From contig NZ_AUBM01000010.1 of the NCBI RefSeq assembly GCF_000429245.1, positions 1-64,000 on the forward strand: a stretch of 64,000 nucleotides of DNA, read 5' to 3'. The translations under genes and the position numbers were made by a program. Below the pieces are notes generated by a model. The model searched no databases and had not been told where the DNA came from. It was given only the letters and a program-made list of their open reading frames with translations. The number at the start of each line of letters is the position of its first letter. Within the stretch, counting starts at the first letter, position 1. Positions 3,249-22,377 of the stretch are shown one piece after another. The DNA comes from Schaalia georgiae DSM 6843 (GTDB lineage Bacteria; Actinomycetota; Actinomycetes; Actinomycetales; Actinomycetaceae).

Positions 3249-4847
3249 TCACTCAGTGGCGAGCAGCGCCTCCTCGGCCTCCTTGGTCCACAGACCGTCC
3301 TTCATGGCAGCGGCCACCTGCGGGAACTTCTCGCCCAGCTCGCTCAGCGGCGTCAGACCCAGGTCGTGCAGGGACGGGAAGACCATGATCTTGCCGCCCG
3401 AGGTGCGGTTGATGACGGCGTTGATGGCGTCGCCGAAGCCGGCCATTCCGGTGACGGCGTAGAGGGAAATCGACGTGTCGATGATGCCCTCCTCGATCTT
3501 GTGCAGGACAGTGCGCATGTCGGACACATCCGAGCCGGAGGTCCCCAGCATGAAGATGTGGCGCTCGATGATTCCCTGCAGGTCGAAGTCGCCGAAGGTA
3601 CCCGCGGGGATTCCCGCGAAGGCGTTGATGATCGCGCCCTCGGCCGCCAGGTCGACCGCGCCCGCGACGAGCGCCGGGACGGGCACCAGGCACGTGATGT
3701 GGGTGTATCCGTATTCCAGGGGGGTCGCGGAGGTGTTGACGATCGACAGGGGCACGCCGTTCTTCTCGGCGACTGGGCCAACAACGGCCTTCAGGCCCGC
3801 GAGGCGCTCGTCGGACAGGTCCGTGCCGACGACGCTGATGCCGGGGACACCGGAGGTGACGGCGCGCATCGTGTGCATCTGGCCCATCGGGCCCGCCGCG
3901 CCGACGATGGCGATCTTGTCGCCCACCCGCAGGTCGCCTGTGTCGGGGATCCACGCGTAGCCCTCGGCCGGGTCGTCCCCGGTGGTGCCCACGAAGCGGA
4001 TGAAGTCGTAGTGGACGCGCCCGATGTCCAGGGACACCTTGCGCTCGATCCGGCGCCCGCCCAGGACGACGTTGAGGACGCCTCGGGAGGCCAGAAGCTG
4101 CGCGATCTTCTCGATGACCCCGGCGTTCGCGCCGAAGTAGACGATGTCGTCGAAGGAGCCCTCAACCGACAGCGCCTCCTCCTCGCTCACGCGGGTGATC
4201 GAGGCCGGGGCGTGGGCGCTCGTCAGCGCGTCCACGTCGCCCTCGCCGACGACCAGCAGCTTGCCGCCGTCGGCCAGGTGGCCGCGTTCCTTCCACGCGT
4301 AGGAGCCCTCGACGGTCGCCCACGGCTCGATGAGGCCGACGGCCGCAGCGGAGGGGGCCTCGGACACGCGGATGAGGAACTCCTCGCCGTCGGGGGCGAC
4401 GACGCAGCGCTCGTCGACGACCGTGTACTCCTGGAGGGCGCCGTCGAAGTTGTAGCCGAAGGCGCCGTTCGACTTCGCGGTGCGCAGGTGCTTCCAGTCG
4501 GCCTGGACCAGGAGGCGGTCACCGACCTTGAAGTGGGTGACGGCGTCGCCGACCGCGATCACGCGGACGACCGGCTCGTGGCCGGGGACTGTGGGGGCAC
4601 TGCCCGGGCGGTAGTTCGGGATCTCTGCGAGCGCCTCGGGGGCGATGCCGGAGACGACCTCGCTCTTGCGCGGGTGGCTGTCGAACTGGTGCAGCAGCTT
4701 CGTGTCGGAGAAGCAGATGCCGCACGCCTCCACTTTGAGGAGCAGTTGGTGGGGACCGAAGCGGTCGACGGGCTTGGCGGTGTTGACCTCGAACTGGTCG
4801 ACCCCCGTGATCTGGATGGCGTACTGGGTTTCAGGGACCTGAGTCAT
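3249..4847 (-). CDS. Long SorE-like MDR (zinc) dehydrogenase with a doubled nucleotide-binding region
   Basis: A 532-residue medium-chain dehydrogenase/reductase. Catalytic zinc ligands are visible: Cys45 in CGICFSD, His90-Glu91 in GHEP, and the Glu of LIEPWA near residue 175. The four-Cys structural zinc lobe is absent. The C-terminus (GLTPLSELGEK, then DGLWTKEAEEALLA) recalls L-sorbose-1-phosphate reductase SorE, so a ketose phosphate is a likely substrate. SorE is about 410 residues; the extra length comes from a second Rossmann-like segment (about 195-305) before the one carrying GAAGPMG. Last gene of the deoxyhexose operon, 111 bases after the SDR gene. Exact reaction unknown; an L-fuculose-1-phosphate oxidoreductase is my guess. 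Confidence 0.75.
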   Translation of the reverse strand: MTQVPETQYAIQITGVDQFEVNTAKPVDRFGPHQLLLKVEACGICFSDTKLLHQFDSHPRKSEVVSGIAPEALAEIPNYRPGSAPTVPGHEPVVRVIAVGDAVTHFKVGDRLLVQADWKHLRTAKSNGAFGYNFDGALQEYTVVDERCVVAPDGEEFLIRVSEAPSAAAVGLIEPWATVEGSYAWKERGHLADGGKLLVVGEGDVDALTSAHAPASITRVSEEEALSVEGSFDDIVYFGANAGVIEKIAQLLASRGVLNVVLGGRRIERKVSLDIGRVHYDFIRFVGTTGDDPAEGYAWIPDTGDLRVGDKIAIVGAAGPMGQMHTMRAVTSGVPGISVVGTDLSDERLAGLKAVVGPVAEKNGVPLSIVNTSATPLEYGYTHITCLVPVPALVAGAVDLAAEGAIINAFAGIPAGTFGDFDLQGIIERHIFMLGTSGSDVSDMRTVLHKIEEGIIDTSISLYAVTGMAGFGDAINAVINRTSGGKIMVFPSLHDLGLTPLSELGEKFPQVAAAMKDGLWTKEAEEALLATE

Positions 4848-4958
4848 GTTTTCTTCCTTGTCGTGAGGGGAGCGCGGAACTGGCGGTGGCGTGGAGCGGG
4901 AGCGCCCGCGGCGGCGTGCCCACGGGCCGGGCGCGGCCCGCCCCGCCCGGCGGAACGG

Positions 4959-5978
4959 TCAGGAGAGCATGACCTGGCCCCCGGTGACGGGCACGGCCTG
5001 GCCCGTCTCGTAGGCCTGCTCGACGATGTAGTAGATGGCGCGCAGGACGTCGATGCCGCTGGCGCCCCGGCGCATGGGGACCTTCGCCTCGTAGAACTCC
5101 TTGACGTCGGCGACGGTCTTGGCGCCGGGGACCTTCCCGGAGTTCAGGTACTGGACGAACAGGCCCTTCTCCGGGTCGGACCACAGGGGGCCGTCGTAGA
5201 AGTTCCCGGGGCAGATGGCGTTCACCTTGATGCCGTGGGCGACCAGTTCGAGGGCGAAGGACTGGACCAGGCCGATGCCGCCGAACTTGGAGCCCGCGTA
5301 GGCGGCGTTCTTGTTCGAGCCGACCAGGCCGGACTTGGAATTGATCTGGATGATGTCGCACATCCACTCGCCACTGGTCTCGTGCTGGCGGGCCAGCAGC
5401 TGCCCCAGGTGTTTGGTGACCAGGAAGAACGCCACGTAGTTGATGTCCGTGGACAGGCGGAACGCCGACGCGTCCTGCTCCAGGACGGAGCCCGCGCGCA
5501 CAATGCCGGCGTTGGACACGACCAGGTCGAGGCCGCCCGTGACCCGCTCGACCTCGGCGGCCATCGCGGCCACGGAGTCCTCGTCGGCGACGTTGACGGT
5601 GATGGGGTGGGTGGTGTCGGCTCCGAGTTCTGCGGCCTTGGCCGCCGCGCCCTCGCCGTTGAGGTCGGCGATGTACACGAAGCACCCCTGGTCGACCAGG
5701 CCCTTGGCGATCTCCGCGCCGAAGCCCTGGGCGCCGCCCGTGACCAGGGCGACGCGCCCGGTGATGGCGCGCTCCCCGGAGGCAGTGGCCCGGACCTGGT
5801 AGGACTCGCCCCCGGCGGAGACGACGACGGGCAGCTCCACGTCCGCGAGGGAGTCGGGGGCCACGTCGGCCAGGGGCTCGTCGAGGACGATTCCCGCCTC
5901 CTGGTCGGTGGGGCTGACGATGACGGGGCGGCGCAGCGCCGCCAGGAAGAGTCCGCGGACCAGCGGTGCGTGTGTCAT
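4959..5978 (-). CDS. SDR-family oxidoreductase with an N-terminal extension
   Basis: A 339-residue short-chain dehydrogenase. The NAD(P) glycine motif TGGAQGFG is at residues 80-87, NAG lies near 173, and the catalytic Ser/Tyr/Lys set is seen in INSKSG and YAGSK. About 72 residues precede the Rossmann fold, more than usual; this stretch has no motif I know. It resembles sorbitol-6-phosphate dehydrogenase-type SDRs. The start at 5978 leaves a 50-base gap from the PHP gene. It probably oxidises or reduces a sugar-phosphate hydroxyl in the deoxyhexose pathway, with the neighbouring MDR enzyme; the substrate is inferred from context only. Confidence 0.75.
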   Translation of the reverse strand: MTHAPLVRGLFLAALRRPVIVSPTDQEAGIVLDEPLADVAPDSLADVELPVVVSAGGESYQVRATASGERAITGRVALVTGGAQGFGAEIAKGLVDQGCFVYIADLNGEGAAAKAAELGADTTHPITVNVADEDSVAAMAAEVERVTGGLDLVVSNAGIVRAGSVLEQDASAFRLSTDINYVAFFLVTKHLGQLLARQHETSGEWMCDIIQINSKSGLVGSNKNAAYAGSKFGGIGLVQSFALELVAHGIKVNAICPGNFYDGPLWSDPEKGLFVQYLNSGKVPGAKTVADVKEFYEAKVPMRRGASGIDVLRAIYYIVEQAYETGQAVPVTGGQVMLS

Positions 5979-6028: not shown

Positions 6029-7333
6029 TCAGGCCCTCGTGGCGTCCTCGGCGACGCGGTCGGCCGCCTCGCCGTCGGCGACCCTCCTGCCCAGGGGCGC
6101 GTACTGGGCGATGCGCTGCGCGAGGCGGTCGGGGCCCAGCCGTCCCGTCCGGCCCAGCAGGTGCAGGGCCGGGTCCACGGAGGACAGGGCCTCGTGGGCG
6201 ACCAGCGCCCACGTGGCCTCGTTGAGGCCGGCGAACTCGGGGCGGCGCAGTTCGGGGCAGTTGAAGGCCTGGCGCGGTTGGTTGATGTCAACGCCGGAGA
6301 TCTCCAGCATGCCGTGGGCGGCGGCGAGCCGGTGGACGCGCTCGAGTTGGGCGGGGGTGTTGCGCGGGGGCATGTAGGTGACGGCGCGCAGGCCCTTGGC
6401 CTCCATGGCGTCGAAGAGCTCGTCGAGGAAGTCGTCCTCGAATTTCTCCGCCTTCTTGTCACCGGTCGGCGAGGCGGACACGTCTCCCAGGTAGGCGTAG
6501 GTGGCGATCGCCCCCACGGAGTCGGCGAACGCGACGACCTCGTCGGCGGTGGCCAGCTCGTCGGTGGGTTGGATGTAGACGCGGTCGAGGTACTCGGCCT
6601 TGAGGACGCCGAGCAGGTCGAACACGAGGTGGGGATTGCCGGGGTCGGCCAGGGCGCCGCAAAGAGCGGCGGGCACGCGGACGCCCATCGTCCCCAGGCC
6701 TGCCACCAGGGCGGGGCCGCGTCCGAATCCCCTGATCAGGGCCGAGGCCATGGCGGCCAGGAGGTGGCGCTCGGTGATGCCTCCCCCGTGGGCGTACTGG
6801 GAGGCGCCGACCATGTCGGCCTGCGGGTCGAAGGGTTCCAGGCCCAGGCCGGCCAGGATGGTGTTCGCCTCGTCGGCCATCGCCAGGGTGCGGCGCAGCC
6901 GCGCCTGCCGCTTGGGGGCCAGCCACGCGTCCACTGCGGCGCGCGCGGGCTCGGGCACTCCCTGAACGGTCATGTAGGCGATTCCCGCGGAGTCGGGGTT
7001 GTTGAGTTTGCGCCCGTCGAGCGGGCCGTCCGGGTCGAAGCGCGCGCGGATCTCGAAACCCGTCACGGAGCCCATTCCCAGGGCACGGGTGGCGGCCGTC
7101 ATCTCCGCCGCGGCGGCGATGGAGTCGTGGTCGACGGAGCCCACCACCCGCAATCCTGCCCGGCGCGCCAGCAGGGCGGCGTGCGTGGGGGTGTAGGGGC
7201 TGAAGGAGTAGCAGGTGTGGATGTGGTTGTTGGACTCGGGGACCCATTCGGGGAACGCTTCCCCGCGGATGGCTTCCCGGAGCGCTGCTGTGCGCTCATC
7301 CTGGCTGAGGGTCGCGTCGTTCGTGGCGTCCAT
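6029..7333 (-). CDS. PHP-domain metal-dependent hydrolase
   Basis: A 434-residue protein with a PHP (polymerase and histidinol phosphatase) domain. Metal-binding motifs NNHIHTCYSFSPYTP (His37, His39) and SVDHD (Asp68, His69) are clear; PHP proteins are usually phosphatases or phosphodiesterases. ATG 7333 follows GCGAGGA; upstream in-frame ATGs at 7357 and 7348 are less well placed. It lies between the E1 and SDR genes in the deoxyhexose operon, so a pathway-specific phosphatase or C-C/C-O hydrolase is plausible. It has no match to histidinol phosphatase genes by context, and its substrate is unknown. Confidence 0.75.
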   Translation of the reverse strand: MDATNDATLSQDERTAALREAIRGEAFPEWVPESNNHIHTCYSFSPYTPTHAALLARRAGLRVVGSVDHDSIAAAAEMTAATRALGMGSVTGFEIRARFDPDGPLDGRKLNNPDSAGIAYMTVQGVPEPARAAVDAWLAPKRQARLRRTLAMADEANTILAGLGLEPFDPQADMVGASQYAHGGGITERHLLAAMASALIRGFGRGPALVAGLGTMGVRVPAALCGALADPGNPHLVFDLLGVLKAEYLDRVYIQPTDELATADEVVAFADSVGAIATYAYLGDVSASPTGDKKAEKFEDDFLDELFDAMEAKGLRAVTYMPPRNTPAQLERVHRLAAAHGMLEISGVDINQPRQAFNCPELRRPEFAGLNEATWALVAHEALSSVDPALHLLGRTGRLGPDRLAQRIAQYAPLGRRVADGEAADRVAEDATRA

Positions 7334-7483: not shown

Positions 7484-7490
7484 ATGGCTT

Positions 7491-9977: not shown

Positions 9978-11345
9978 TCAGAGCTTGACGGCCCAGGCGG
10001 CCTCGCGGATGACCTCGGAGACCGTGGGGTGGGGGAAGACGACCTGGCGCAGGTCCTCGACGGTGAGCTCCATCTCGAGGACGGCCTGCGCGCCCCAGAT
10101 CATCTCGGCGGCGTACGCGCCGAGCACGTGGATGCCGAGGACCTGGTGGGTGTCGGGGTCGACGAGGATCTTCGCCTCGCCGGGGGCCTTGAAGCCGTTC
10201 TCGGCGATGAAGCGGCCGGACATGAGGGCGGGGACCTTGGCGACCAGGACGGGGCGCCCCTCGCGCTTGGCGGCCGATTCGGTCAGGCCGACGCCGGCGG
10301 CCTCGGGGATCGAGAACACGGCCCACGGCACGGTGTGCCAGCGCATGACCTCGCCGCGCTTCTTGGCGTCCGGGTCGAGGATGTTCGCCGCGGCGATCTC
10401 AGCCATGCGGTAAGCGGCGTGCGCCAGCAGCGACCGCCCGGTGACATCGCCGATGGCCCACACGTTCGGCAGGTTCGTGCGCATCGTGTCGTCGACGACG
10501 ACGCCGCGGTTGATCTCGAGGCCACTCTCTTCGGCGCCCCAGCCGTCAGTCGCGGGGCGGCGGCCGACGGCCATGAGGACCACGTCGGCATCGACGCTCT
10601 TGCTCTCCCCGTCCTTGGAGTAGTGGACGGTGCCCCCGTCGAGGGATTCGACCCGGCAGCCGAGCTCGAAGGCCACGTCCCTCATGGCGGCGCGCGCCTT
10701 GGCGGCCAGGTCGTCGTCCATGAAGGGCAGGATCTCAGGCGCCATCTCGATGACGGTGACCTTCGAGCCGAGCGTGGAGTAGAGGGAGGCGAACTCGACG
10801 CCGATGACACCGCCGCCGATGACGGCCAGGCGCTCGGGCACCTCGGGCAGGGACAGGATGCCCGTGGAGTCCACGAGGGCGGGGTTGTCCTGCGTGCCGG
10901 GCAGCGGGGGCATGGCCGGGACTGAGCCGGTGGCGATGATGACGTGGTCCGAGGTGTAGGCCGTGCCCTCCACGGTGACGCGTCCGGGGGCGTCGAGGCG
11001 GCCCCGTCCGTTGATGACCGCGACTCCCGCCTTGCGCTCGGTGGCGGCCACGCCCGCGACCAGTCCGCGCACGACCTGGTCCTTCCAGTCCTGCATCTGC
11101 CTCCAGTTGACGGACACGCCCTGGGCGTCGACGCCGAATTGGCTGGCTTCCTTGGCGTGCAGGTAGTTCTTGGCGCCGTTGAGCAGGGTCTTCGTGGGGA
11201 TGCAGCCCACGTTCAGGCAGGTGCCGCCCAGGTACTGCTCTTCGACCAGCGCGACCTTCTTGCCCGCGTTCCCCAGGCGCTCGGCGGCCAGGTAGCCCCC
11301 GGGGCCGGCCCCCAGGACGATGACGTCGAAGTGTGTCTCGCTCAT
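9978..11345 (-). CDS. lpdA: Dihydrolipoyl dehydrogenase (E3)
   Basis: A 455-residue flavoprotein disulfide reductase that re-oxidises the E2 lipoyl arm with NAD+. It shows the FAD motif GAGPGGYLAA, the redox disulfide GGTCLNVGCIPTK (about 41-53), an NAD motif VIGGGVIGVEFAS, the second FAD motif AIGDVTG and the C-terminal HPTVSE with the catalytic His-Glu. Length and motifs are normal. Thirty-three bases separate it from E1 and 16 from E2, so it is one operon with them and the third piece of the locus-specific complex. The symbol is the general family name. Confidence 0.93.
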   Translation of the reverse strand: MSETHFDVIVLGAGPGGYLAAERLGNAGKKVALVEEQYLGGTCLNVGCIPTKTLLNGAKNYLHAKEASQFGVDAQGVSVNWRQMQDWKDQVVRGLVAGVAATERKAGVAVINGRGRLDAPGRVTVEGTAYTSDHVIIATGSVPAMPPLPGTQDNPALVDSTGILSLPEVPERLAVIGGGVIGVEFASLYSTLGSKVTVIEMAPEILPFMDDDLAAKARAAMRDVAFELGCRVESLDGGTVHYSKDGESKSVDADVVLMAVGRRPATDGWGAEESGLEINRGVVVDDTMRTNLPNVWAIGDVTGRSLLAHAAYRMAEIAAANILDPDAKKRGEVMRWHTVPWAVFSIPEAAGVGLTESAAKREGRPVLVAKVPALMSGRFIAENGFKAPGEAKILVDPDTHQVLGIHVLGAYAAEMIWGAQAVLEMELTVEDLRQVVFPHPTVSEVIREAAWAVKL

Positions 11346-11361: not shown

Positions 11362-12699
11362 TCAGGCCAGGACTGTCACGTCGATGTTCTCGATGGCGGC
11401 GACGAGGTCGCGCAGGAAGCGCGCGCCGTCCGCGCCGTCGATGACCTGGTGGTCGATCGTGAGCGACAGGTTGAGGCGCTGCTCGACGCCGACGGTGCCG
11501 TCGGGGGCGAGGGCCGGGCGCGGAGTGATCGCGCCGACGCCGAGGATCGCCGTCTGGGGCAGGTTGATGACGGGGGTGAAGGTCTCGATCCCGAAGGATC
11601 CGATGTTGGAGACCGTGAAGGTCCCGCCGCCCAGGTAGTCGGGCGACAGGGTGCCGTCGATGGCGCCGCCGGCCAGGCGCTTGGCCTCGTCGGAGAACGC
11701 CTTGAGGCCCAGGGACTGCGCGGAGCGGATGACGGGGACCAGGAGGCCGCGCGGGGTGTCGCACGCGAAGCCGAGGTGCACCTGCTCGAACTGGGTGAGG
11801 ACGCCGTCTTCGAGGTGCGCGTTGAAGACGGGGTACTTCGGCAGGGTGCGCGACACCGCGAAGCAGACGAGGTCGTTGAGAGTGATCTTGTTCAGCCCCA
11901 GGGCCTCGTCGGCGTTCTTGACTTTCTTGCGCAGGGCGAGGATGCCGGCCGCGTTCGCCGTGGTGTTCAGGGTCAGCTGGGCGGTCGTGGTCAGGGACTC
12001 CATCATGCGCTTGGCGACGACCTTGCGCACGCCCTTGAGCGGTGAGGATGCGGAGGCGCCGGGGAAGTCGGCGGCCGGAGCGGCAGCCGGGGCGGCGGGT
12101 GCGGCCGGTGCCCCGGGGGCGCGGTTCGCGTCGGCGACGCTGACGCGGCCCCCGATTCCGGTGCCCTCTGCGGCGCTCACACCGGCGGCGCGCGCGGCGG
12201 AGGTGAGGACAGGGCCGGCGGCGATCGCCGCGGCGACATCGCGCTCGATGACGCGCCCGTGGGGCCCGGAGCCCTCGGTGATGGCCGAGGCGTCGATGCC
12301 CTTGGCGGACGCGAGCGCGCGGGCGCGCGGGGAGACGGCGCCACTGGCCGCGGTGGTCGCGAGGGAGGGCGCGGGCACGGCGCTGGCGGGGGCCTCCTCG
12401 TCGGGCGCGGGTCCGGCCTCGGCGGCCCCACCCCCGGGGACGAGGCCGGAGACGTCCTCGCCGGGGGCGCCGACGATGATGAGGGGATCCTTGACGGGGA
12501 CCTCGTCCCCCTCGTCCCACAGGAGCTTGAGAACAGTGCCCTCGGCGGTCGATGGCACCTCCATCGTCGACTTGTCGGTCTCGATGGAGCAGAGGGTCTG
12601 GTCGAGGGAGACGGCGTCGCCCTCGGCGACCGTCCACTCCACGATGATGCAGGACTCCACAGAGTTGCCCAGCTGGGGCATCACCACGATGGTGGCCAT
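11362..12699 (-). CDS. Dihydrolipoamide acyltransferase (E2)
   Basis: A 445-residue E2. It has an N-terminal lipoyl domain with the lipoylated Lys43 in ETDKSTMEV, an Ala/Pro linker, a peripheral-subunit-binding domain around 118-155 (SPRARALA, GPHGRVIERDV) and a second similar segment near 160-185 (GIGGRVSVAD). The catalytic domain with DHQVIDGADGARFL is near the C-terminus. It transfers an acyl group from E1 to CoA. ATG 12699 follows a perfect TAGGAGGAAA; a longer frame upstream overlaps the deoR gene and is rejected. The acyl product (acetyl-, lactyl- or other) cannot be told. Confidence 0.9.
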   Translation of the reverse strand: MATIVVMPQLGNSVESCIIVEWTVAEGDAVSLDQTLCSIETDKSTMEVPSTAEGTVLKLLWDEGDEVPVKDPLIIVGAPGEDVSGLVPGGGAAEAGPAPDEEAPASAVPAPSLATTAASGAVSPRARALASAKGIDASAITEGSGPHGRVIERDVAAAIAAGPVLTSAARAAGVSAAEGTGIGGRVSVADANRAPGAPAAPAAPAAAPAADFPGASASSPLKGVRKVVAKRMMESLTTTAQLTLNTTANAAGILALRKKVKNADEALGLNKITLNDLVCFAVSRTLPKYPVFNAHLEDGVLTQFEQVHLGFACDTPRGLLVPVIRSAQSLGLKAFSDEAKRLAGGAIDGTLSPDYLGGGTFTVSNIGSFGIETFTPVINLPQTAILGVGAITPRPALAPDGTVGVEQRLNLSLTIDHQVIDGADGARFLRDLVAAIENIDVTVLA

Positions 12700-13456: not shown

Positions 13457-13505
13457 GTCCATCACCTCTTCGTGGACGAAAATCCGTCATTTTGCTTTCC
13501 CTTGC

Positions 13506-13538
13506 GTCTATAATAGACAAGGAAACGAAAGTGCGCAA
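13506..13538 (-). promoter_or_regulatory. Promoter with embedded palindromic operator, deoR/E2-E3-E1 operon
   Basis: Minus strand: -35 TTGCGC (13533-13538), 17-base spacer, -10 TATTAT (13510-13515). The perfect inverted repeat GTCTATAATAGAC (13506-13518) covers the -10. This is the classic layout for autorepression and the best candidate operator for the adjacent DeoR protein. Confidence 0.75.
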
Positions 13539-13634: not shown

Positions 13635-13671
13635 AAAAGGCGGGCGGGATCCGATTCGGACCCCGCCCGCC
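13635..13671 (-). terminator. Rho-independent terminator after fucU
   Basis: Minus strand: 10-bp G/C stem (13639-13648 with 13662-13671) followed by TTTT. It ends the importer-fucI-kinase-lacI-fucU transcript and separates it from the deoR-led operon. Confidence 0.88.
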
Positions 13672-13740
13672 GCACGTCTGCCCGCACAGCAGCGCCCGTA
13701 GCGCCACCCACACGGAAAAACGAAACTCAAACGAAAATGC

Positions 13741-14172
13741 TCACTCGTCCGGCTGGCGCACCCCGACCGTGATCAGCAGGTTCCCGTACAGGCGCTGCTC
13801 CCCCGTCGCCACGACGATCCCCACATCCTCGGAGCGGGCCGCGTCGTAGAAGTCGAAGCGCGTGAGGGAGGAGAACTCCACGTCGGGCAACTCCTCCTTG
13901 AACTCGTCGTGGATCGGGATCCCCACCGGCTCGGCAGTGGGGTCGGGGACCATGATCTCCACGCTCTCGATCGGGATCGTCCTCTTGAGGACCCGGAGCA
14001 CTTCGATCACGTCCAGCATGCCGGGAGCGTAGTTGAGCGAGACCAACTCGCAGGAGGGTCCCACTCCAGTCTTGTGGGGGTAGTTCGCGTCCGCCAGCAG
14101 GATCTTCGAGCCGTGGCCGGCAGTGGCCAGGGCGCGCAGGAACTGCGGATGGGTCATGGGTCCGTACAGCAC
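13741..14172 (-). CDS. fucU: FucU/RbsD-family L-fucose mutarotase
   Basis: About 143 residues of the RbsD/FucU family, which interconverts anomers of L-fucose (or ribose) after import. Visible family features are HPQFLRALATAGHGSKILLADANYP with the catalytic His of GHG, and the C-terminal ATGEQRLYGNLLITVGV. I prefer the GTG at 14172, giving MLYGPMTHPQF, because it follows AAAGGA and matches the usual family start; an ATG at 14187 overlaps the lacI stop (ATGA) but lacks a ribosome site. Last gene before the terminator. FucU rather than RbsD is inferred from the neighbouring fucose isomerase. Confidence 0.87.
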   Translation of the reverse strand: MLYGPMTHPQFLRALATAGHGSKILLADANYPHKTGVGPSCELVSLNYAPGMLDVIEVLRVLKRTIPIESVEIMVPDPTAEPVGIPIHDEFKEELPDVEFSSLTRFDFYDAARSEDVGIVVATGEQRLYGNLLITVGVRQPDE

Positions 14173-14183
14173 TGTGGTTCCTT

Positions 14184-15173
14184 TCATAGTATGGAGCTGG
14201 CCCGGATGACCAACTCGGGGTCGATCGTGATGTCCTGCGGCCTGCCCCCGTCGATCATGGAGCGGACCAGGCGCACGGCTGTGCGCCCCAGCCTGTCGAA
14301 GGGCTGGTGGATCGTTGTGAGCGGCGGCGCGTAGGAGTCCGCGCCGTCGATGTCGTCGAAGCCGACGACGCGCACGTCCCCGGGCACCGTCCCCCCTTTC
14401 TCGTGGATGAAGCGCATCGCCCCCAGGGCGAGCTGGTCGTTCGCCGTCTGGATGCCCTGCGGCAGGCGGTCCAGCGCGCGCATCGCGTCGTAGCCGTCGC
14501 GGGAGTCCCACGAGTCCGGCACCAGGACGCGCGGGCGCACCCCCGCCTCGGCGCAGGCCCGCTGGTACCCGATGCGGCGCATGACCGCGTCCGACCAGCC
14601 CTCGGGCCCGCAGATGTGCACGACGTCGGTGAGTCCCTGGTCCAGCAGGTGCTCCGTGGCGATCCGCGCGCCACGGACATTGTCGATGGCGACGGTGGAA
14701 ACCCCGTCGAGCCCCTTCTCCGAAGTGAGGACCAGCACTGTGGGGACCCTCTGACCGACGGCGGCTGCCATCTCCACAGTGGGATCCTGGCCCCCCAGGA
14801 TCACGACGCCATCGACGTCGAAGGGCGCGATGTCCGAGCGCAGCCGCCCATCGGGCGAGTACGCGTAGGAAAGGGACACGTGGTACCCCGCCTGGCTGGA
14901 GGCGTTGAGCACCGCCAGCAGCACCCGCCCGTGCCCGTGGAACATCGGTGCGGCCAGCAGCACGTGGAGGACCCCCGTGCGGTTCGAGGCCAGCGCCCGC
15001 GCCGCGTAGTTCGGCACGTACCCCGTCTCGTCGATGAGGGCGGCGATGCGCTTGCGGGTCTTGTCCGCCACCTCGGGGTCGCCGCGCACCACGCGGGACA
15101 CGGTGTTCGTCGACACCCCCGCCAACGCCGCGATATCCGCCAGGGATACTTTCTTAGCGGGCTTGCGGGACAT
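14184..15173 (-). CDS. LacI-family transcriptional regulator
   Basis: About 329 residues. It has an N-terminal LacI helix-turn-helix and hinge (VSLADIAALAGVSTNTVSRVV, YVPNYAARALASNRTG) and a periplasmic-binding-like sugar domain ending with VVGFDDIDGADSYAPPLTTI. The gene overlaps the kinase gene by about 20 bases and is translationally coupled to fucU. The likely target is the palindrome CGTTAACGCTAACG ahead of the importer genes; ligand probably free L-fucose or a related sugar. GTG at 15179 is an alternative start. Confidence 0.9.
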   Translation of the reverse strand: MSRKPAKKVSLADIAALAGVSTNTVSRVVRGDPEVADKTRKRIAALIDETGYVPNYAARALASNRTGVLHVLLAAPMFHGHGRVLLAVLNASSQAGYHVSLSYAYSPDGRLRSDIAPFDVDGVVILGGQDPTVEMAAAVGQRVPTVLVLTSEKGLDGVSTVAIDNVRGARIATEHLLDQGLTDVVHICGPEGWSDAVMRRIGYQRACAEAGVRPRVLVPDSWDSRDGYDAMRALDRLPQGIQTANDQLALGAMRFIHEKGGTVPGDVRVVGFDDIDGADSYAPPLTTIHQPFDRLGRTAVRLVRSMIDGGRPQDITIDPELVIRASSIL

Positions 15174-16560
15174 GGACACGGGTGGAGGCGCTCGCCGCGA
15201 TCACAGCCGGGCGGTCGGCGGGGTCGAGCTCCCCCAGGGCCTCGAGTTGGGCGAGCAACGAGCCGAAGGTGGACGCCTCGATGGGCCCCGCCACGACCGT
15301 GACCCCCGCGAGGGAGGCGGTGAGGTCGCACAGCAGCCGGTTGCGGGCGCCGCCGCCAACCAGGTTGAGCTGGTCGGGGGCCTGCCCCGTCGCCTCCGTC
15401 AACTCGCCGACGGCGCGGGCGTAGCGGTGGGCGAAGGACTCGATGATGACGCGCACGTACTCGGGCATCGACTGGGGAAGGGGGGCGCCCTGGGCGGCCA
15501 GGGCCTGGTCGATCTTGCGCTGCATGTCGCCGGGTTCGGCGAAGCGGGGGTCGTCGGGGTTGAAGTAGGCGGCGGCGGGCGGGCACTGGCGGGCCTGGGC
15601 GACCAGTTCGTCGGTGTCGGTCGGCGTCCCCTCGCGCTCCCACTGGCGCTGGATCTCCTGGAGGATCCACATCCCGGTGATGTTGAACAGCGGCCGCACG
15701 CCCCCGTCGGTGCGCGCTTCGTTGGTGATCCCCAGGTCGAAGGCCGCGTCCGACATCAGGGGCGCGTCCTCGATGGCGCCCAGGACCGACCAGGAGCCGC
15801 AGGAGAGGAAGTAGGCCCGCTTCCCCTCGTCGATGGGCAGGCCGTGGACCGCGCAGGCGCTGTCGTGGGCGCCGCCGCGCACGACGGTGAGCCCCTCCAG
15901 GCCGGGGACGGAGCACTGCCCCACGACGGTGCGGTCGGCGCTGATGCCCCCCACCCATTGCCGGGGGATGCCGAGGCGTTCGAAGACCTCGTCGGAGAAC
16001 CGCCCGGCTCCTGGCTCGGCCAGGCCCGACGTGGAGGCGATGGTGCGCGACCAGCCCTTGACGCCGGTGAGGCGCCATGCGAAGTAGTCGGGCAGGTAGA
16101 GGACCGACGCGACCCTGGCGGCCAGCTCCGGCTCCTCGACGAGCATGGCGACCAGTTGGTTCGCGGTGTTGATGGTGGCGGGCTGCAGACCCGTGAGGTC
16201 GAAGACCTCCCGGTCGCCCAGGCGGGAGCGGAACTCCCCGAGTGTGCGGGATGTGCGCTCGTCGCGGTAGGCGCGGACCGGGCCGACCAATTCGTCGTCG
16301 GCGTCGAGTGGGGCGAAGTCCACGCCCCACGTGTCGATGGAGACGGAGACGGCGTCGGGGTGGGCCTCGACGGCTTCGCGCAGCCCGATGACGGTCTGCT
16401 CCCACATGGTCTCGACGTCCCATGTCAGGGAGGCGCCGTCGCGCAGGGCCTGGTGCTTGAAACGGTGGACGTCGGCGACCTCCACGCGCCCATCGGCGAA
16501 AGTGCCGGCGAGTACGCGCCCCGACGCGGATCCGAGGTCTACGGCAAGTACGGTGGTCAT
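15154..16560 (-). CDS. FGGY carbohydrate kinase, rhamnulokinase/L-fuculokinase type
   Basis: A 468-residue FGGY sugar kinase. The N-terminal phosphate loop DLGSASGRV, IDTWGVDF, YRDERT and LPDYFAWRLTG, the Ser/Gly strand LSCGSWSVLG, NLVGGGARNRLLCDL and GPIEASTFG all follow E. coli RhaB closely, more than FucK. With fucI beside it, the substrate is most likely L-fuculose (to L-fuculose-1-phosphate); RhaB-like enzymes also take rhamnulose. ATG 16560 follows AAAGGGA. It overlaps lacI downstream and follows fucI by 205 bases containing a strong hairpin. Confidence 0.88.
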   Translation of the reverse strand: MTTVLAVDLGSASGRVLAGTFADGRVEVADVHRFKHQALRDGASLTWDVETMWEQTVIGLREAVEAHPDAVSVSIDTWGVDFAPLDADDELVGPVRAYRDERTSRTLGEFRSRLGDREVFDLTGLQPATINTANQLVAMLVEEPELAARVASVLYLPDYFAWRLTGVKGWSRTIASTSGLAEPGAGRFSDEVFERLGIPRQWVGGISADRTVVGQCSVPGLEGLTVVRGGAHDSACAVHGLPIDEGKRAYFLSCGSWSVLGAIEDAPLMSDAAFDLGITNEARTDGGVRPLFNITGMWILQEIQRQWEREGTPTDTDELVAQARQCPPAAAYFNPDDPRFAEPGDMQRKIDQALAAQGAPLPQSMPEYVRVIIESFAHRYARAVGELTEATGQAPDQLNLVGGGARNRLLCDLTASLAGVTVVAGPIEASTFGSLLAQLEALGELDPADRPAVIAASASTRVHVPQAR

Positions 16561-16765: not shown

Positions 16766-18529
16766 TCAGCGGTACATCGGGCCGAAGGTCTGGCAGGCGC
16801 GGAAGTCGGCGCCCTCCGGGGACTCGGTGCCGAACAGCGACCATGCCTTGGGGCGGAAGACCCGTTCCTCGGGCACGTTGTGCATGTTGACCGGGATGCG
16901 CAGCATGGACGCCAGGGTGATCAGCTGGCCGCCGATGTGGCCGTAGCTGATGGCGCCGTGGTTCGCGCCCCAGTTGTTCATCACGTCGTAGACGCTCTTG
17001 AACGCGCCCTCGCCCGTGAGGTTCGGGACGAACCAGGTCGTGGGCCACTCGATGTTAGTGCGCTCCTCGATCGTGTAGGCGACCTCGTCGGGCAGCTCCA
17101 CGGAGTACCCCTCGGCGATCTGCATGACCGGGCCCAGGCCGCGCACCAGGTTGATGCGGCACATGGTCATGGGCATGCCGCCGGAGGTGCGGAAGTGGGT
17201 GGAGAAGCCACCGCCGCGGAAGTAGCCGGTGGAGGCCGGGTGGAAGGTCGTGGCCCCGAGGGTGGCCTCGCGGTCCTCCTCGGTCAGCTCGTACCAGGGC
17301 TTGATGACGGGCTCGCCGTCGCGCAGCGCCTTCCCGGCGCCGTCGAGCGTGGTCGAACCGGAGTTGCGCAGGTCGAGCAGACCGGCTGCAGCCAGGCCCT
17401 CGGGCTTCCAGCCCGTCGCCTTCTCAATGGCCTCCGGACTCCAGTAGGTGCGCACGTCGGAGAAGATCTGCGGCGTGTTGGTCAGCAGGTAGCCGAAGAG
17501 CATGGACGCGCCGTTGAGGGAGTCGTTCTCCGTGGCGACCACCGAGGGCTGGCGGATGCCGGTCCAGTCGAAGTTCGTGTTCAAGATGGTCTCGAGCACG
17601 TCGCCGTTGGGGAAGTGGTCGGTCCACTGGCGCTGGCCCTGGAAGCCCGCGGCGATGGCGCCGTGGCCACCCGCCTCCTCCTCGAAGCCCAGCTCGGCCA
17701 GGCGCGGGTTGCCGTGCATGAGGTCCCGGCCGATGAGCGTCATCTTCGTGACGAACTTCCACCAGTCCTCGTGCTTGTCGGGGTACTGCCACTCCGGCGG
17801 GTTCCAGTCCTTGCCCTGCTTGAAGTTCTCGCGGATCCACTTGTAGGCCCGTTCGTACTCCTCGTGGTCGTAGATGCCCTCGTCAATGCGGCGCGTGAAC
17901 TCGCTCATGTCGATGTACTCGTTGCGCATGCCCAGGTAGGCGCCGAAGAACTCGGGGTTGACGACGGAGCCGGCGATGCCCATCGACACCGAGCCCATGG
18001 ACAGGTAGGCCTCGCCCTTCATCTGGGCGACGGCCAGGCCTGCGGTCGCGTAGTCCAGCAGGCGCGTGCGCACGTCCTCGGGGATCGAGGCGTCGTCGGC
18101 GTCCTGCACGTGTTCGCCGTAGATGCCGAAGGCTGGGATGCCGATCTGGGCGTGCCCGGCCAGCGCGGCCGCCAAGTACACGGCGCCGGGGCGCTCGGTG
18201 CCGTTGAAGCCCCAGATGGCGTGGGGCATGGCCGGGTCCATGTCCGTGGTCTCCGTGCCGTAGCACCAGCAGGGGGTGACCGTGACGGTCAGGCCGACGT
18301 TGTTCTCCTTGAACTTCGCGGCGCAGGCCTGCGCCTCGTGGACGCGCCCGATCGTGGTGTCGGCGATGACGACCTCGACGGGCTCGCCGTCCGGGTAGCG
18401 CAGGTTCTCGGTGAAGAGCCCGGCGACCGCGCGGGCCATGCCCATGGTCTGGTCTTCGAGGCTCTCCCGGACGCCCTTGCGGCGCCCGTCGATAGTGGGT
18501 CGGATTCCGATACGGGGGTGTTGCGTCAT
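16766..18529 (-). CDS. fucI: L-fucose isomerase
   Basis: A 587-residue isomerase aligned by eye with E. coli FucI (591 aa) over its full length: [69 protein letters not shown] and [12 protein letters not shown]. The Mn2+ ligands are retained: Glu in ATENDS, Asp in ADVRTYW and His in NWGANHG. It converts L-fucose (and D-arabinose) to the ketose L-fuculose in the cytoplasm. ATG 18529 follows GAAGGGAC. It lies between the binding protein and the kinase. Confidence 0.97.
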
Positions 18530-18705: not shown

Positions 18706-19767
18706 TCACTCGTAAAGGTTGGGGGCGATCGCGGAGTCCGCGATGTTGTCCTTCGTGTACCAGGCGAAACCGGAATCGATCACGTTGGGCAGTCCACCCT
18801 TGTTGATCGCCGCGATCGCGGCCTTCACGGTCAGTTCGCCCATCCGCTTGGGCGACTGGGTGATCGCACCGGCCTCGGAGCCGTCCTTGATGGCGTCCTG
18901 CTGCGGCTTGCCGGAGTCGAAGCCGACGATCGTGACGTCGGACTTGCCGGACTCGGACACGCCCTGGACCACGCCCGAGGCGGCCGCCTCGTTGGAGCCG
19001 TACATGCCGACAATGTCCGAGTTCGCCTGGATGATGCCCTTGGCGGTGTCGGCGGCCAGGCCGACCTCACCCGCGTATTGCTCCTGGACCAGCGTGAGGT
19101 TGGACGGGGCGTTCTTCTCGAAGTAGTCCTTGAAGCCCGCGCAACGCTGCTTGCCGGTGGTGGAGGTCTGGTCGTGGCACACCATGCCGACCGATCCTTG
19201 CTTGTCGCCGAGGATTTCGATCATGTGCTTCGCGGCCTCTCCGGCCGCGGCGTAGTTGTCCGTCTGGACGGTGGTGACGGGAATGTCCGAGTCGACGCCG
19301 GAGTCGAAGGCGACGACGGGGATGCCCTCCGCCTTGATCTTGTCCAGAGTTTCAGCCGCGGCAGCCGAATCGAGCGCCGCGAAGCCGATGGCCGCGGGCT
19401 TGGACGCGAACGCCGTGTTCAGCTGGTCGGTCTGCTCGGTGACGGCCTTCTCGTTCTGGGGGCCGACGAACTGGATCTTGTAACCGCAGGCCTTGCCCGC
19501 TTCCTCGGCGCCCTCCTTCACGGCCTGCCAGAAGCGGTGCTGGAACCCCTTGGACACGAGGTAGATGGTCTGGGAGCCGTCGCCTTTCGTGACCGACTTC
19601 TCCCACTCCTCGCCGCTGTCCGAGGCGCACTCGACCTTCGCCGCCGGGGCGTTGGAGCCCGACGAGTCACTGGTCGACGAGGTGTCTTCCGACCGCGAGC
19701 ACGCCGTGAGGCCCAGGGCCATGGTGCCGACGGCGGCGGCGGCGACGATACGTCCGATGGGTCGCAT
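18706..19767 (-). CDS. Sugar ABC transporter substrate-binding lipoprotein (RbsB-type)
   Basis: A 353-residue lipoprotein with a short signal peptide and lipobox LTAC near residue 22, then a periplasmic-binding fold of the RbsB/LacI type (VAFDSGVDSDIPVTTV, MYGSNEAAASGVVQ, VGFDSGKPQQDAI). It captures a monosaccharide, most likely L-fucose, outside the cell. Start 19767 follows AAAGGA; an earlier ATG at 19782 has no site. It is downstream of the permease gene by 91 bases, the reverse of the common order. Confidence 0.9.
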   Translation of the reverse strand: MRPIGRIVAAAAVGTMALGLTACSRSEDTSSTSDSSGSNAPAAKVECASDSGEEWEKSVTKGDGSQTIYLVSKGFQHRFWQAVKEGAEEAGKACGYKIQFVGPQNEKAVTEQTDQLNTAFASKPAAIGFAALDSAAAAETLDKIKAEGIPVVAFDSGVDSDIPVTTVQTDNYAAAGEAAKHMIEILGDKQGSVGMVCHDQTSTTGKQRCAGFKDYFEKNAPSNLTLVQEQYAGEVGLAADTAKGIIQANSDIVGMYGSNEAAASGVVQGVSESGKSDVTIVGFDSGKPQQDAIKDGSEAGAITQSPKRMGELTVKAAIAAINKGGLPNVIDSGFAWYTKDNIADSAIAPNLYE

Positions 19768-19858
19768 TGGTTTTCCTTTCATGGGTTTGGTCGGGGACGC
19801 CCCGGCCAAAGGACGGTGGACATCTCTGTCCGAGTTCATTGGATCGAAAGTTGATGGG

Positions 19859-20863
19859 TCAGGCCGCGTTCTCACGAGCGCGGCGGATATTGTCCACGGC
19901 GACCGCGAGGAGGATCGCGATACCGGTCACAACGTACTGGTAGTCCTGCGCGATGCTCATCATGATGAGGCCCTTCTTCAGGGTCTCCATGATGAGCGCG
20001 CCGACCAGCGCGCCGGGGATCGAGGCGCGGCCGCCGGACAGCGAGGTGCCGCCGATAACGGCCGCGGCGATGACATTGAGCTCCATGCCCACGCCCTCGG
20101 CGGGCTGGACCAAGCCCGAGCGCGCCGAGTAGAGGATGGCACCGATGGCCATGAACACGCCGGCGACGACGTAGATGATGATCTTCCACAGGCGGACGTT
20201 GACGCCCGACAGACGGGTGGCTTCCTCGTTCGACCCGATGGCCAGGGCGTAGCGGCCGAGCAGGGTCTTGTTCATGAGGAAGGTGGCGATGATCGTGAGG
20301 ACGACGAAGATGAGCGCCGAGTTGGCGACGTGGGGGATCAGTTCGCCGGTCGCCAGTTTCTTGTACGCGGCGTTCTTAATGGTGATGGACTGGGTTTGCG
20401 AGATGACCAGCGCCAGGCCACGGGCGACCATCATCATCGCGAGTGTGGCGATGAAGGGGGGCAGGCCCAGGACCGACACGTTGAAGCCGTTCACCAGGCC
20501 GACGGCAGCGCCGACCAGGATAGTCAGCAGCAGGCCGAGGCCGAGCGGCAGGTTCATCTTGTCGCCCGCCAGGAAGATCCCTGCCATGACGGCGACGAAG
20601 CTGAGGCCCGTGCCCACGGAGAGGTCGATGCCCGATGTCGCGATCACGAAGGTCGCGCCCAGGGCCATGACGCCGGTGAAGGCGGCTTGGAGGACGATGT
20701 CGAGGTAGATCGTCGGATCCGCGAAGTTGGGCGCCGCCATCGAGAAGAACAGGAGGATGACCACCAGCGCGGCCGTCACGACCAGCAACTGCATGTTCCT
20801 CTTGAGGAAAGTGGCAAAAGCCGAGGGCGTTTCCAGGCCCTTGTTGTCGACTGCGGTGCTCAC
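19859..20863 (-). CDS. Sugar ABC transporter permease (RbsC-type)
   Basis: A 334-residue membrane protein with about eight to ten hydrophobic segments, in the BPD_transp_2 (RbsC/XylH) family: ALGATFVIATSGIDLSVG, LPPFIATLAMMMVARGLAL and NVIAAAVIGGTSLSGGRAS are hallmark stretches. It forms the channel of the importer with the neighbouring ATPase. Its ATG overlaps the ATPase stop by four bases (ATGA), so they are translationally coupled. Usually two copies form a homodimer. Confidence 0.93.
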   Translation of the reverse strand: MSTAVDNKGLETPSAFATFLKRNMQLLVVTAALVVILLFFSMAAPNFADPTIYLDIVLQAAFTGVMALGATFVIATSGIDLSVGTGLSFVAVMAGIFLAGDKMNLPLGLGLLLTILVGAAVGLVNGFNVSVLGLPPFIATLAMMMVARGLALVISQTQSITIKNAAYKKLATGELIPHVANSALIFVVLTIIATFLMNKTLLGRYALAIGSNEEATRLSGVNVRLWKIIIYVVAGVFMAIGAILYSARSGLVQPAEGVGMELNVIAAAVIGGTSLSGGRASIPGALVGALIMETLKKGLIMMSIAQDYQYVVTGIAILLAVAVDNIRRARENAA

Positions 20864-22377
20864 GCGACTTCTCCGTTCGCTTCTTCCTGACCGACGGTGG
20901 CCAGTTCCATAATGTTCTCTTGGGTGGCTTCCTCATTGTCGAGGATGCCGATGATCCGGCCGTGCGCCATGACGGCGATCCGGTTGGCCAGGCGCAGGAC
21001 CTCGGGGAGTTCGGAGGAGATCACGATGATCGCCTTGCCCTGCGAGGCCAGGTTCTCCAGCAGCGTGTAGATCTCGTCCTTGGCCCCGACATCGATGCCG
21101 CGCGTGGGCTCGTCGAAGATGAGGATCTCCGCATCGCGCTCCAGCCATTTCGCGACGACGACCTTCTGCTGGTTGCCGCCCGAGAGACTGCGGACGTCGA
21201 CGTCCACACTGGGGGTGCGGGTGCGCAGCTTCTTCACGTACTCCTGGGCGACCGTGCGGATCTTCTTGGCGTTGACGATGGCAGCCTTGGTGAACTTGTC
21301 CATCGTCGCCAGCGAGGTGTTGAAGGAGATGTCCTTGTCGAGCAGCAGGCCGTACTGCTTACGGTCCTCGGAGAGGTAGCCGATCCCGTGGTCGACGGCG
21401 TCTGTGGCGCTCTTGATGGCCACTTCCTCCCCGTGGACGCGGACGACTCCCTCCGTGTGGGGGTCGGCCCCGAAGAGGGCCCGGGCGACCTCGGTGCGTC
21501 CGGCTCCCACCAGGCCGGCGAAGCCGAAGATCTCGCCCTTCTTCACTTCGAAGGAGACATCGTGCACCACCTTCGCGGTCGACAAGTGCTCCACCTCGAG
21601 GACGAGCTCGTCGGAAATCGGCTTGGTGGTGGGACGCGCGTCGGCGGGGACCTCGCGGCCGACCATCATCTTGACGACCTCGGACATGGGGGTGGTGGCG
21701 GTCTCGACGGTCCCGATGTACTTCCCGTCGCGCAGCACCGAGATGCGGTCGGTGAGCTCGGTGAGTTCGGGCATGCGGTGCGTGATGAAGATCAGGCCCG
21801 TCTCGGGGGTGATGAAGTCGCGCACCAGTGAGAACAGCGCTTCGGTCTCACTGGTGGTCAGCGGCGCCGTGGGCTCGTCCATCACGAGGATCTTCGAGTC
21901 GAAGGACAGGGCCCTGGCGATCTCGACCATCTGCAGGCGGGCGACGGGCAGGTCGCGGCAGCGCGCGGTGGGGTCGATGTCCATGTTGAGGCGCTCGAAG
22001 AGCTCACGGGCGTCGCACACCAGTTTGCGGTCGTCCACGTACAGCCACTTCGAGGACTCCTGGCGCCCGAGGTACAGGTTCTGGGCGACGGTCAGATCAG
22101 GAACGATGTTGAGTTCCTGGTGGATGATGGACAGGCCGAGGTCGCGGGCGTGCTCGGGGGACTGGATGTCCACCTGCTCGCCCTGGAGCCGGATCTCGCC
22201 GCCCGGGTCGGATTTGTGGATACCGGTGAGGACTTTCATGAGCGTCGACTTGCCGGCGCCGTTCTCACCGCAGAGCCCCAGGACTTCGCCGGGTCGAAGG
22301 TCGAGGTCCACGTCGGACAGCGCCTTTACACCTGGGAAGGTCTTGGAGATCCCCTTGAGTTCTAGTAGGTTTGTCAC
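20860..22377 (-). CDS. Sugar ABC transporter ATP-binding protein (RbsA-type, two ABC domains)
   Basis: A 505-residue protein with two tandem ABC domains. In the first, Walker A is GENGAGKSTL near 38 and Walker B ILVMDEPTAPL follows; the signature is degenerate (LPVARLQMVEI). In the second, FAGLVGAGRTE is a modified Walker A, with LSGGNQQKVVVAKWL and ILIFDEPTRGIDVG. This is the normal RbsA/MglA/AraG pattern. First gene of the importer unit, preceded by a LacI-type operator. It energises uptake with the permease and binding protein. Confidence 0.95.
   Translation of the reverse strand: MTNLLELKGISKTFPGVKALSDVDLDLRPGEVLGLCGENGAGKSTLMKVLTGIHKSDPGGEIRLQGEQVDIQSPEHARDLGLSIIHQELNIVPDLTVAQNLYLGRQESSKWLYVDDRKLVCDARELFERLNMDIDPTARCRDLPVARLQMVEIARALSFDSKILVMDEPTAPLTTSETEALFSLVRDFITPETGLIFITHRMPELTELTDRISVLRDGKYIGTVETATTPMSEVVKMMVGREVPADARPTTKPISDELVLEVEHLSTAKVVHDVSFEVKKGEIFGFAGLVGAGRTEVARALFGADPHTEGVVRVHGEEVAIKSATDAVDHGIGYLSEDRKQYGLLLDKDISFNTSLATMDKFTKAAIVNAKKIRTVAQEYVKKLRTRTPSVDVDVRSLSGGNQQKVVVAKWLERDAEILIFDEPTRGIDVGAKDEIYTLLENLASQGKAIIVISSELPEVLRLANRIAVMAHGRIIGILDNEEATQENIMELATVGQEEANGEVA

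Follow-up and report, generated by a model that had tools for sequence, protein, structure and literature searches.

How can the breakdown of L-fucose be completed from a locus that encodes L-fucose isomerase (FucI), a sugar kinase and the mutarotase FucU, has no class II aldolase, and carries the genes of an entire lipoamide-dependent dehydrogenase complex? The question is raised by positions 3249-22377 of a 64,000-nucleotide stretch of Schaalia georgiae DSM 6843 (the window, always meant at its full length), which is the start of contig C6 of the source genome G000 (2.50 Mb, 23 contigs). Following a DeoR-family regulator, the locus encodes an acyltransferase (E2), a dihydrolipoyl dehydrogenase (E3), a fused thiamine-diphosphate enzyme (E1), a PHP-fold protein, a short-chain dehydrogenase/reductase (SDR) and a medium-chain dehydrogenase/reductase (MDR). 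We observed that this module recurs in other phyla, in several cases beside FucI or RhaA, and we consider it highly probable that it serves 6-deoxyhexoses.

Company of the module in other genomes

At least 582 relatives of the fused E1 were confirmed in genome_contigs, and the best 80 of them were analyzed. Together with loci L007-L010 they made a set of 84 loci, in which the partner genes were sought by scans and profile iteration; the neighboring open reading frames formed 17 gene clusters, and 10 representatives were scanned. The E1 of L015 is 99% identical to the window E1. Profile iteration detected PHP in 46, MDR in 46 and SDR in 48 of the 84 loci. All three partners were present together in 33 of the best 80 E1 loci and at least two of them in 42; for the 38 of these loci whose flanks each span 5.5 kb or more, the numbers were 22 and 25, respectively. 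Judged by record titles, the loci with two or more partners belong to ten groups: Actinomycetes, Spirochaetes, Verrucomicrobia, Kiritimatiellae, Lentisphaerae, Chloroflexi, Firmicutes, Bacteroidetes, Chlorobiota and an Atribacteria metagenome-assembled genome (MAG). The window likewise has MDR, SDR, PHP, E1 and E2 in one locus. Because this gene set is found again in other phyla, its grouping is not a product of chance. The check for conserved co-occurrence suggested with the original prediction, which was made from the sequence of the window alone, thus gave a positive answer: MDR, PHP and SDR accompany E1, and FucI or RhaA, in other phyla.

For example, L050 has on one strand FucU, FucI, E2, E1, PHP, SDR, SorE and a PfkB kinase, in this order, and L108, also on one strand, has RhaA, RhaB, DeoR, SDR, PHP, SorE, E2, E3, E1 and a RhaE-like protein. 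The genes for RhaB, DeoR, SDR, PHP, SorE, E2, E3, E1 and a RhaE-like protein are found in L110 as well, and FucI adjoins them on the opposite strand. Among the best 80 E1 loci, FucI was found in 9 (Actinomycetes, Spirochaetes and an Atribacteria MAG) and RhaA in 4 (L043, L044, L051, L074), with one or the other in 13. A FucI-like match in L078 (23%) was too weak to be counted as a tenth FucI locus. All three partners stand with FucI in L015, L020, L026, L032 and L050, SDR and PHP in L038, SDR in L042, and none in the partial stretches L041 and L052.

Besides the loci, we considered whole genomes that carry the module. The 43 carrier genomes were the 41 surveyed for PF00596 (see below) plus G413 and G582; 13 of the 43 had been chosen with FucI in the locus. 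FucI scored over the cut-off in 35 of 43 (27 of 31 and 8 of 12). Among the carriers not chosen for FucI it was present in 22 of 30 (14 of 18 in the first 31-genome set and 8 of 12 in the remaining 12), compared to 3 of 14 named control genomes. The FucI of G327 reached only 122 bits, and that of G287 lies just outside the stretch examined around E1. RhaA matches above 570 bits were found in 11 of 31 carriers. The absence of FucI is not confined to the modules whose PHP diverges most: G329 and G331 have no FucI at a PHP identity of 41%, and in G332 FucI is present at a PHP identity of 18%.

In 396 genomes of the phylum, drawn independently of E1, PHP was found in 7 and FucI in 19, and 6 of the 7 genomes with PHP had FucI (one-sided Fisher test, 3.6e-8); without G000 the overlap was 5 of 6 (6.4e-7). 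Around the PHP gene of the six genomes other than G000, the whole set was present in L108 and L110, DeoR and SDR in L109 (3.3 kb), and SDR and MDR in L113 (4.7 kb). Three of the six have a full-strength E1 match, two of them next to PHP and one on another contig. By contrast, in the two genomes of family f56 with FucI, this gene is accompanied by FucA, and no PHP match was found. In the other FucI genomes without the module, neither FucA nor PHP was found in the stretches examined, several of them short.

The original prediction had also noted the lack of an aldolase gene at the locus. This was borne out: there, as on the rest of contig C6, no match to the class II aldolase family PF00596 was found. 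A search of the whole genome, some stretches of which read N, detected no FucA and a single PF00596 protein (68.5 bits, 377 amino acids) on another contig, which matched the aldolase half of the RhaEW models below cut-off and is RhaE-like. Its gene adjoins RhaI (TIGR02635, 602 bits against a cut-off of 531), RhaB, RhaM and an importer, a separate rhamnose locus. Of the classical FucI-FucK-FucA set G000 thus has FucI, and no class II aldolase FucA was detected. Nor does it have a RhaEW fusion, as the window SDR stands alone and the RhaE-like protein on the other contig matches the aldolase half only.

PF00596 was found in 33 of the 41 carrier genomes surveyed and not in the other 8 (G268, G287, G297, G299, G319, G322, G326, G333). 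We discounted G297, whose sequence is partly N; stretches of N may occur in the others as well, and completeness figures are known only for G268 and G287. In these two genomes, 99-100% complete and with FucI present, there was no match to PF00596, to a RhaI fragment or to the RhaE-like protein. The genome-wide absence of a class II aldolase holds only for some relatives, and the search covered class II among the aldolase families.

RhaE-like proteins accompany RhaA more than FucI. They were found in the RhaA loci L043, L044, L051 and L108, and not in L074; BLASTp detected none in 11 FucI loci (L008, L010, L015, L020, L026, L032, L038, L041, L042, L050, L052), several of which are partial. In L110, however, a RhaE-like protein does occur alongside FucI, and G320, the home of L050, has a PF00596 match beside RhaA elsewhere on the contig. 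In L069 and L089 the RhaE-like aldolase is fused to an SDR. In an alignment with RhaEW and FucA, the motifs HxHP and NHG were conserved in all 12 RhaE-like sequences, as were the zinc ligands and the catalytic-site Glu known from FucA. By homology they may be aldolases, or else 4-epimerases that would join rhamnulose-1-phosphate to fuculose-1-phosphate. The latter idea is attractive because the two compounds are C4 epimers, and PMC5434028 describes 4-epimerization as possible for class II aldolases.

Some relatives of the fused E1 have other company. In L011-L014 (plasmids of Rhizobium, Pleomorphomonas and Agrobacterium) a lipoyl protein that stands alone and an alpha/beta hydrolase come after the fused E1 relatives, which are 51-52% identical; sugar importers and kinases lie nearby, and no match to the window MDR, SDR or PHP was found. 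The two Rhizobium loci have RbsD/FucU and a sugar-phosphate isomerase, the Agrobacterium one a mannitol dehydrogenase family protein. These four loci are possibly a sister pathway for another sugar. URO-D-like genes, one representative of which was scanned, cluster beside some fused E1 genes (L065, L087, L045, L050:4835-6046). The variant modules L053, L057, L079, L071, L075 and L078 have a divergent PHP, 26-28% identical to that of the window, in which DHD reads DFD; apart from the L078 match mentioned above, no FucI or RhaA was recognized at these loci.

The proposed route and its rivals

E1 alpha and beta, a lipoyl E2 and E3 are encoded together in the window, as in 2-oxoacid and acetoin dehydrogenase complexes. 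Only one other PF00676 protein was found in G000; it lies in a frame of 1314 amino acids on another contig and is probably 2-oxoglutarate dehydrogenase. For this reason the window E1 looks like a separate, dedicated enzyme.

What would prepare the substrate of such a complex is suggested by the proteins in the MDR and SDR slots. The original prediction had called the MDR SorE-like; for the window protein itself this resemblance turned out to be remote, and it is in other phyla that close SorE relatives fill the slot. In 21 loci the MDR is 47-53% identical to Citrobacter SorE over 413-424 aligned positions, and Cys45, His90, Glu91 and Glu174 are invariant in 26 sequences that include Citrobacter SorE and the window MDR. 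The reaction of the window MDR is therefore read through its slot, its direct identity to SorE being low. As described in PMC12817954, the E. coli SorE reduces L-sorbose-1-phosphate to D-sorbitol-6-phosphate. For the window SDR the nearest kind was sorbitol-6-phosphate dehydrogenase, with a match to PDB 5o3z, and two of the five SDR-slot proteins scanned passed the cut-offs of that enzyme (L079, 372 bits against 307; L081, 352 against 304). The window SDR also matched the RhaW half of TIGR02632 (137 bits). In two loci of Calditrichia (L039:5946-7223 and L068:2238-3527) no SDR was found, and SorE is joined by relatives of mannitol-1-phosphate 5-dehydrogenase (104 and 121 bits, below cut-offs). 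SorE and E1 are thus found in the company of relatives of polyol-phosphate dehydrogenases that belong to two different families.

Two side observations concern these enzymes. In the window SDR (4959-5978) the Rossmann start is preceded by an N-terminal extension some 70 residues long, and profile matches suggest that the extension is common to FucI-type modules and lacking in several others. A plasmid of Deinococcus sp. AJ005 (L098:13117-17871) carries an SDR, an MDR of 564 amino acids, an FGGY kinase and a GntR regulator in a row, with no E1 in the stretch examined; this set may simply move the carbonyl of another sugar and so convert one ketose into another.

The original prediction had both dehydrogenases oxidize the ketose phosphate. 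The slot homologs, SorE and sorbitol-6-phosphate dehydrogenase, suggest a different order, a reduction at C2 followed by an oxidation at C5. In the route that we propose, L-fucose would be imported and turned into L-fuculose-1-phosphate by the fuc half of the locus. The SorE-like MDR would reduce its C2 to give a 6-deoxyhexitol-1-phosphate, L-fucitol-1-phosphate (that is, 1-deoxy-D-galactitol-6-phosphate). The SrlD-like SDR would then oxidize C5, next to the methyl group, to give 1-deoxy-D-tagatose-6-phosphate with an acetoin-like CH3-CO-CHOH end; the two steps together would be a redox-neutral move of the carbonyl. Acetoin dehydrogenase cleaves a CH3-CO-CHOH unit. Acting in the same way, the fused E1 with E2 and E3 would pass the acetyl unit to lipoamide and on to CoA, with formation of NADH, and release a tetrose-4-phosphate, which by the stereochemistry of SorE and SrlD would be D-threose-4-phosphate. 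L-Rhamnulose-1-phosphate differs only at C4, which becomes the tetrose aldehyde, and the same module could therefore serve rhamnose, by way of 1-deoxy-D-sorbose-6-phosphate to acetyl-CoA and D-threose-4-phosphate. In Fischer projection, the hydroxyl expected to be oxidized by SrlD and the center expected to be made by SorE would have the same configuration for L-sorbose-1-phosphate, L-fuculose-1-phosphate and L-rhamnulose-1-phosphate. The net reaction would be sugar + ATP + NAD + CoA to acetyl-CoA + tetrose-4-phosphate + NADH + ADP, and the regulator DeoR would respond to one of the sugar phosphates on this route. We regard this carbonyl-transposing, acetyl-CoA-forming chemistry as fairly probable; each reaction, the stereochemistry, the PHP step and the regulation are deduced from homology. 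In outline, an aldolase-independent deoxyhexose route to acyl-CoA through a dedicated E1/E2/E3 complex, the core of the original prediction, agrees with the comparative data, with the reactions again taken from homology.

The PHP protein had been suggested to remove a phosphate, which now appears doubtful because several metal-ligand positions are replaced. The predicted fold of the window protein is indeed that of PHP phosphoesterases, and among the fold matches listed PHP proteins came first, with no sugar isomerase among them. In the canonical PHP metal-ligand set the last motif is DxH. In all 36 sequences aligned this motif reads D/E-x-N, and in all 36 Phe/Tyr44 stands opposite the Asp that follows HxH in 3e0f; the His of the 3e0f DHD aligns with Phe in 12 of the 36. 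A plain phosphatase was set aside, as the fold agrees with it and the metal site does not. The protein probably converts the tetrose phosphate or the preceding ketose, as an isomerase or epimerase, less likely as a phosphatase.

We also considered a bolder version of the proposal, a third general 6-deoxyhexose route in which fucose and rhamnose would converge on 1-deoxy-ketose phosphates split to acetyl-CoA and one tetrose-4-phosphate. The divergent PHP protein, as an epimerase or isomerase dependent on metal, would direct the tetrose or its ketose precursor toward erythrose-4-phosphate, and the RhaE-like proteins of the rhamnose loci would be 4-epimerases from rhamnulose-1-phosphate to fuculose-1-phosphate, not aldolases. 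In this complete form the proposal is tentative and rather doubtful.

A number of observations weigh against the reading of the module as a 6-deoxyhexose pathway of this kind. The E1 family is broader than the module, since 13 of the 38 well-flanked loci have fewer than two partners: 11 have none of the three and 2 have one (PHP in L025, MDR in L068). FucI over the cut-off is missing in 8 of 43 carriers (G298, G299, G311, G312, G319, G328, G329, G331). The two-by-two test of PHP and FucI rests on one family besides G000 and reflects the pattern of one lineage; moreover, in L111 and L112 the 7-11 kb examined next to PHP contain none of the module partners, the E1 matches of their genomes (about 600 bits) contain stops, and a third genome has no E1 match. 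In the window, a terminator-like hairpin parts the fuc half of the locus from the deoR half. The window MDR is 26% identical to SorE over 303 amino acids and closer (30%) to the Deinococcus plasmid MDR of 564 amino acids. Three SDRs stay below the SrlD equivalog cut-off of 307, that of the window (208.5 bits) and those forming the SDR halves in L069 (224) and L089 (233). The fused E1 is 31% identical to the AcoAB pair and 32% to another fused E1 of unknown substrate, by pairwise similarity only; as the two score alike, acetoin-type cleavage is not fixed by the sequence. The RhaE-like proteins in several module loci, with zinc ligands and the FucA Glu kept, may be true aldolases. Finally, we know of no entry of D-threose-4-phosphate into central metabolism.

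The same gene set would suffice for a route with two oxidations, in which the SDR makes a 2,5-diulose phosphate from L-fuculose-1-phosphate, the acetyl unit is then taken off by E1/E2/E3, and the keto-tetrose phosphate left over is reduced by the MDR to an erythrulose phosphate, a compound that would join erythritol-type routes. We find this order unlikely, as SorE reduces a ketose-1-phosphate at C2 and the SDR slot resembles hexitol-phosphate dehydrogenases, both of which point to reduction before oxidation; besides, the SDR-MDR-kinase set of L098 occurs without E1 in the stretch examined. Little credence, too, is given to an unrecognized aldolase that splits fuculose-1-phosphate, with the SDR as a RhaW-like lactaldehyde dehydrogenase and E1/E2/E3 as an ordinary pyruvate dehydrogenase for the C3 acid. 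The match of the SDR to the RhaW half of TIGR02632 speaks for it, as do the RhaE-like aldolases in several module loci, fused to an SDR in L069 and L089, and the formation of lactate by RhaEW in vitro, described in PMC3870299. However, the sorbitol-6-phosphate dehydrogenase profile fits the SDR better (208.5 bits), the SorE-like reductase would be left without a role, no RhaE-like match was detected in 11 FucI loci of the 84 (yet L110 has both, and G320 has PF00596 beside RhaA), and G268 and G287 have FucI and no PF00596 match.

It is also conceivable that the deoR operon serves another sugar, such as sorbose or a hexitol, and that the fuc genes adjoin it by chance. The deoR operon would be transcribed separately and has a regulator of its own, neither FucI nor RhaA was seen in the stretch examined for most of the 80 E1 loci, and the eight carriers without FucI listed above fit this view. 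Still, we hold it to be very improbable, given that the module has FucI or RhaA in its locus in several phyla and that FucI occurs in 22 of the 30 carriers not chosen for it, compared to 3 of 14 controls and 19 of 396 genomes of the phylum. The combination named beforehand as fatal to an aldolase-independent route, a fucose-induced FucA elsewhere with a DeoR operon for a different substrate, was not found in the sequence searched: the sole PF00596 protein of G000 is RhaE-like and belongs to its rhamnose locus, and in other phyla the module tracks FucI and RhaA.

Layout of the locus

Parts of the locus were named by matches to PFAM, TIGRFAM and NF profiles with curated cut-offs and by pairwise identities to E. 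coli proteins (Table 1). Profile searches with the window proteins placed all genes of the locus on the minus strand, in the transcription order ATP-binding cassette (ABC) ATPase, permease, binding protein, FucI, RhaB-like FGGY kinase, LacI, FucU, DeoR, E2, E3, fused E1, PHP, SDR and MDR. The gene order and single strand of the original prediction were thereby confirmed part by part, although it had overlooked lacI and its tight spacing did not hold throughout, with gaps of 275 bp between fucU and deoR and 157 bp between E1 and PHP.

Table 1. Features of the locus in window coordinates
Feature	Position	Strand	Evidence and remarks
Sugar ABC transporter ATPase, RbsA-type	20860..22377	-	PF00005, two stretches
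Sugar ABC permease	19859..20863	-	PF02653
Periplasmic sugar-binding protein	18706..19767	-	PF13407; ATG start chosen
L-fucose isomerase FucI	16766..18529	-	NF008220, 1016 bits (cut-off 775); 60% to E. coli FucI
FGGY ketose kinase, rhamnulokinase-like	15154..16560	-	PF00370/PF02782; TIGR02627, 346 bits, below cut-off 528
LacI-family regulator, between kinase and fucU	14184..15173	-	PF00356, PF13377
FucU L-fucose mutarotase	13741..14157	-	PF05025; 28% to E. coli FucU
Two TTTCGTTT repeats 11 bp apart, DeoR-type operator-like	13718..13736	-	
Intrinsic-terminator-like hairpin, 15 pairs, 13 GC, then TTTT	13639..13671	-	fucU-deoR gap
Third TTTCGTTT site, upstream of deoR	13523..13530	-	
DeoR-family regulator, SrlR/AgaR-like	12710..13465	-	PF00455/PF08220; 32% to E. 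coli SrlR
E2 dihydrolipoyl acyltransferase	11362..12699	-	PF00198 (acyltransferase), PF00364 (lipoyl), PF02817 (E3-binding)
E3 dihydrolipoyl dehydrogenase	9978..11345	-	TIGR01350, 467 bits (cut-off 409)
Fused thiamine-diphosphate E1 alpha/beta, 817 amino acids	7491..9944	-	PF00676, PF02779, PF02780
PHP-fold protein, altered metal site	6029..7333	-	
SDR, sorbitol-6-phosphate 2-dehydrogenase-like	4959..5978	-	NF009050, 208.5 bits, below cut-off 307; 36% to E. coli SrlD
MDR	3249..4847	-	PF08240; profile family common to SorE-like proteins of other loci

The FGGY kinase is 34% identical to E. coli RhaB compared to 24% to FucK; from its sequence and setting it is presumed to be the L-fuculokinase. 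The hairpin is by far the longest of 9 terminator-like matches in the window, a number hardly above the 7.1 found in shuffled sequences. The three TTTCGTTT sites of the window (0.25 expected) all lie within the gap between fucU and deoR, and we take this type of motif to be DeoR-type operator-like. Since the hairpin with its TTTT and the TTTCGTTT sites occupy this gap, two transcription units are likely, one with LacI and one with DeoR.

A sodium:alanine symporter lies downstream of the MDR on the opposite strand (window 937-2514), and an alkyltransferase-like protein with an MGMT DNA-binding domain just upstream of the importer (22570-23391). A DUF4853-domain protein is encoded farther away (42812-44077).

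Relation to known systems and meaning

In the L-sorbose pathway of enterobacteria (SorE/SorD), an MDR reduces a ketose-1-phosphate at C2 and an SDR oxidizes the hexitol phosphate at its other end; the same families are found in many module loci. The ketose of the module, on the other hand, is expected to be a 6-deoxy sugar, and the product a 1-deoxy-ketose phosphate handed to E1/E2/E3. Acetoin dehydrogenase (AcoABC with E3), which converts an alpha-hydroxyketone to acetyl-CoA and an aldehyde, is likewise a lipoamide complex with an E1 of the pyruvate dehydrogenase (PDH) type. The window E1, at its 31% identity to AcoAB, differs in being fused and in an insertion of about 50 residues with respect to AcoA, and its substrate would be a sugar phosphate; the window E2 is a PDH-type acyltransferase that matches AcoC over the lipoyl domain only. 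With the FucI-FucK-FucA pathway of E. coli the locus shares an isomerase, a kinase and a mutarotase, but it lacks FucA, and no lactaldehyde or propanediol step is expected. The Fcl oxidative (fucolactone) pathway also degrades L-fucose and does not start with FucI. As to the RhaEW pathway of Chloroflexus and Bacillus (PMC3870299 describes RhaEW), the SDR is related to RhaW, and RhaE-like proteins stand in several module loci, whereas SorE, PHP and E1/E2/E3 are additional and 11 FucI module loci have no RhaE-like match.

We found no description of the module in the open-access literature, most subscription journals being outside the search; it consists of known kinds of enzymes in a pathway not described so far. 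Mucin, algae and plant walls all have fucose and rhamnose among their major sugars. Two fucose pathways are on record in PMC5583593, which calls unresolved 23 genomes that lack fuculose-phosphate aldolase. For some genomes without this enzyme the module may provide a testable answer. If the proposal is true, the products would be acetyl-CoA, NADH and a C4 sugar phosphate instead of lactaldehyde and 1,2-propanediol, and the predicted fermentation products would change. The cleavage of a sugar phosphate would then be a new use of a lipoamide complex, and the divergent PHP family may have a metabolic role.

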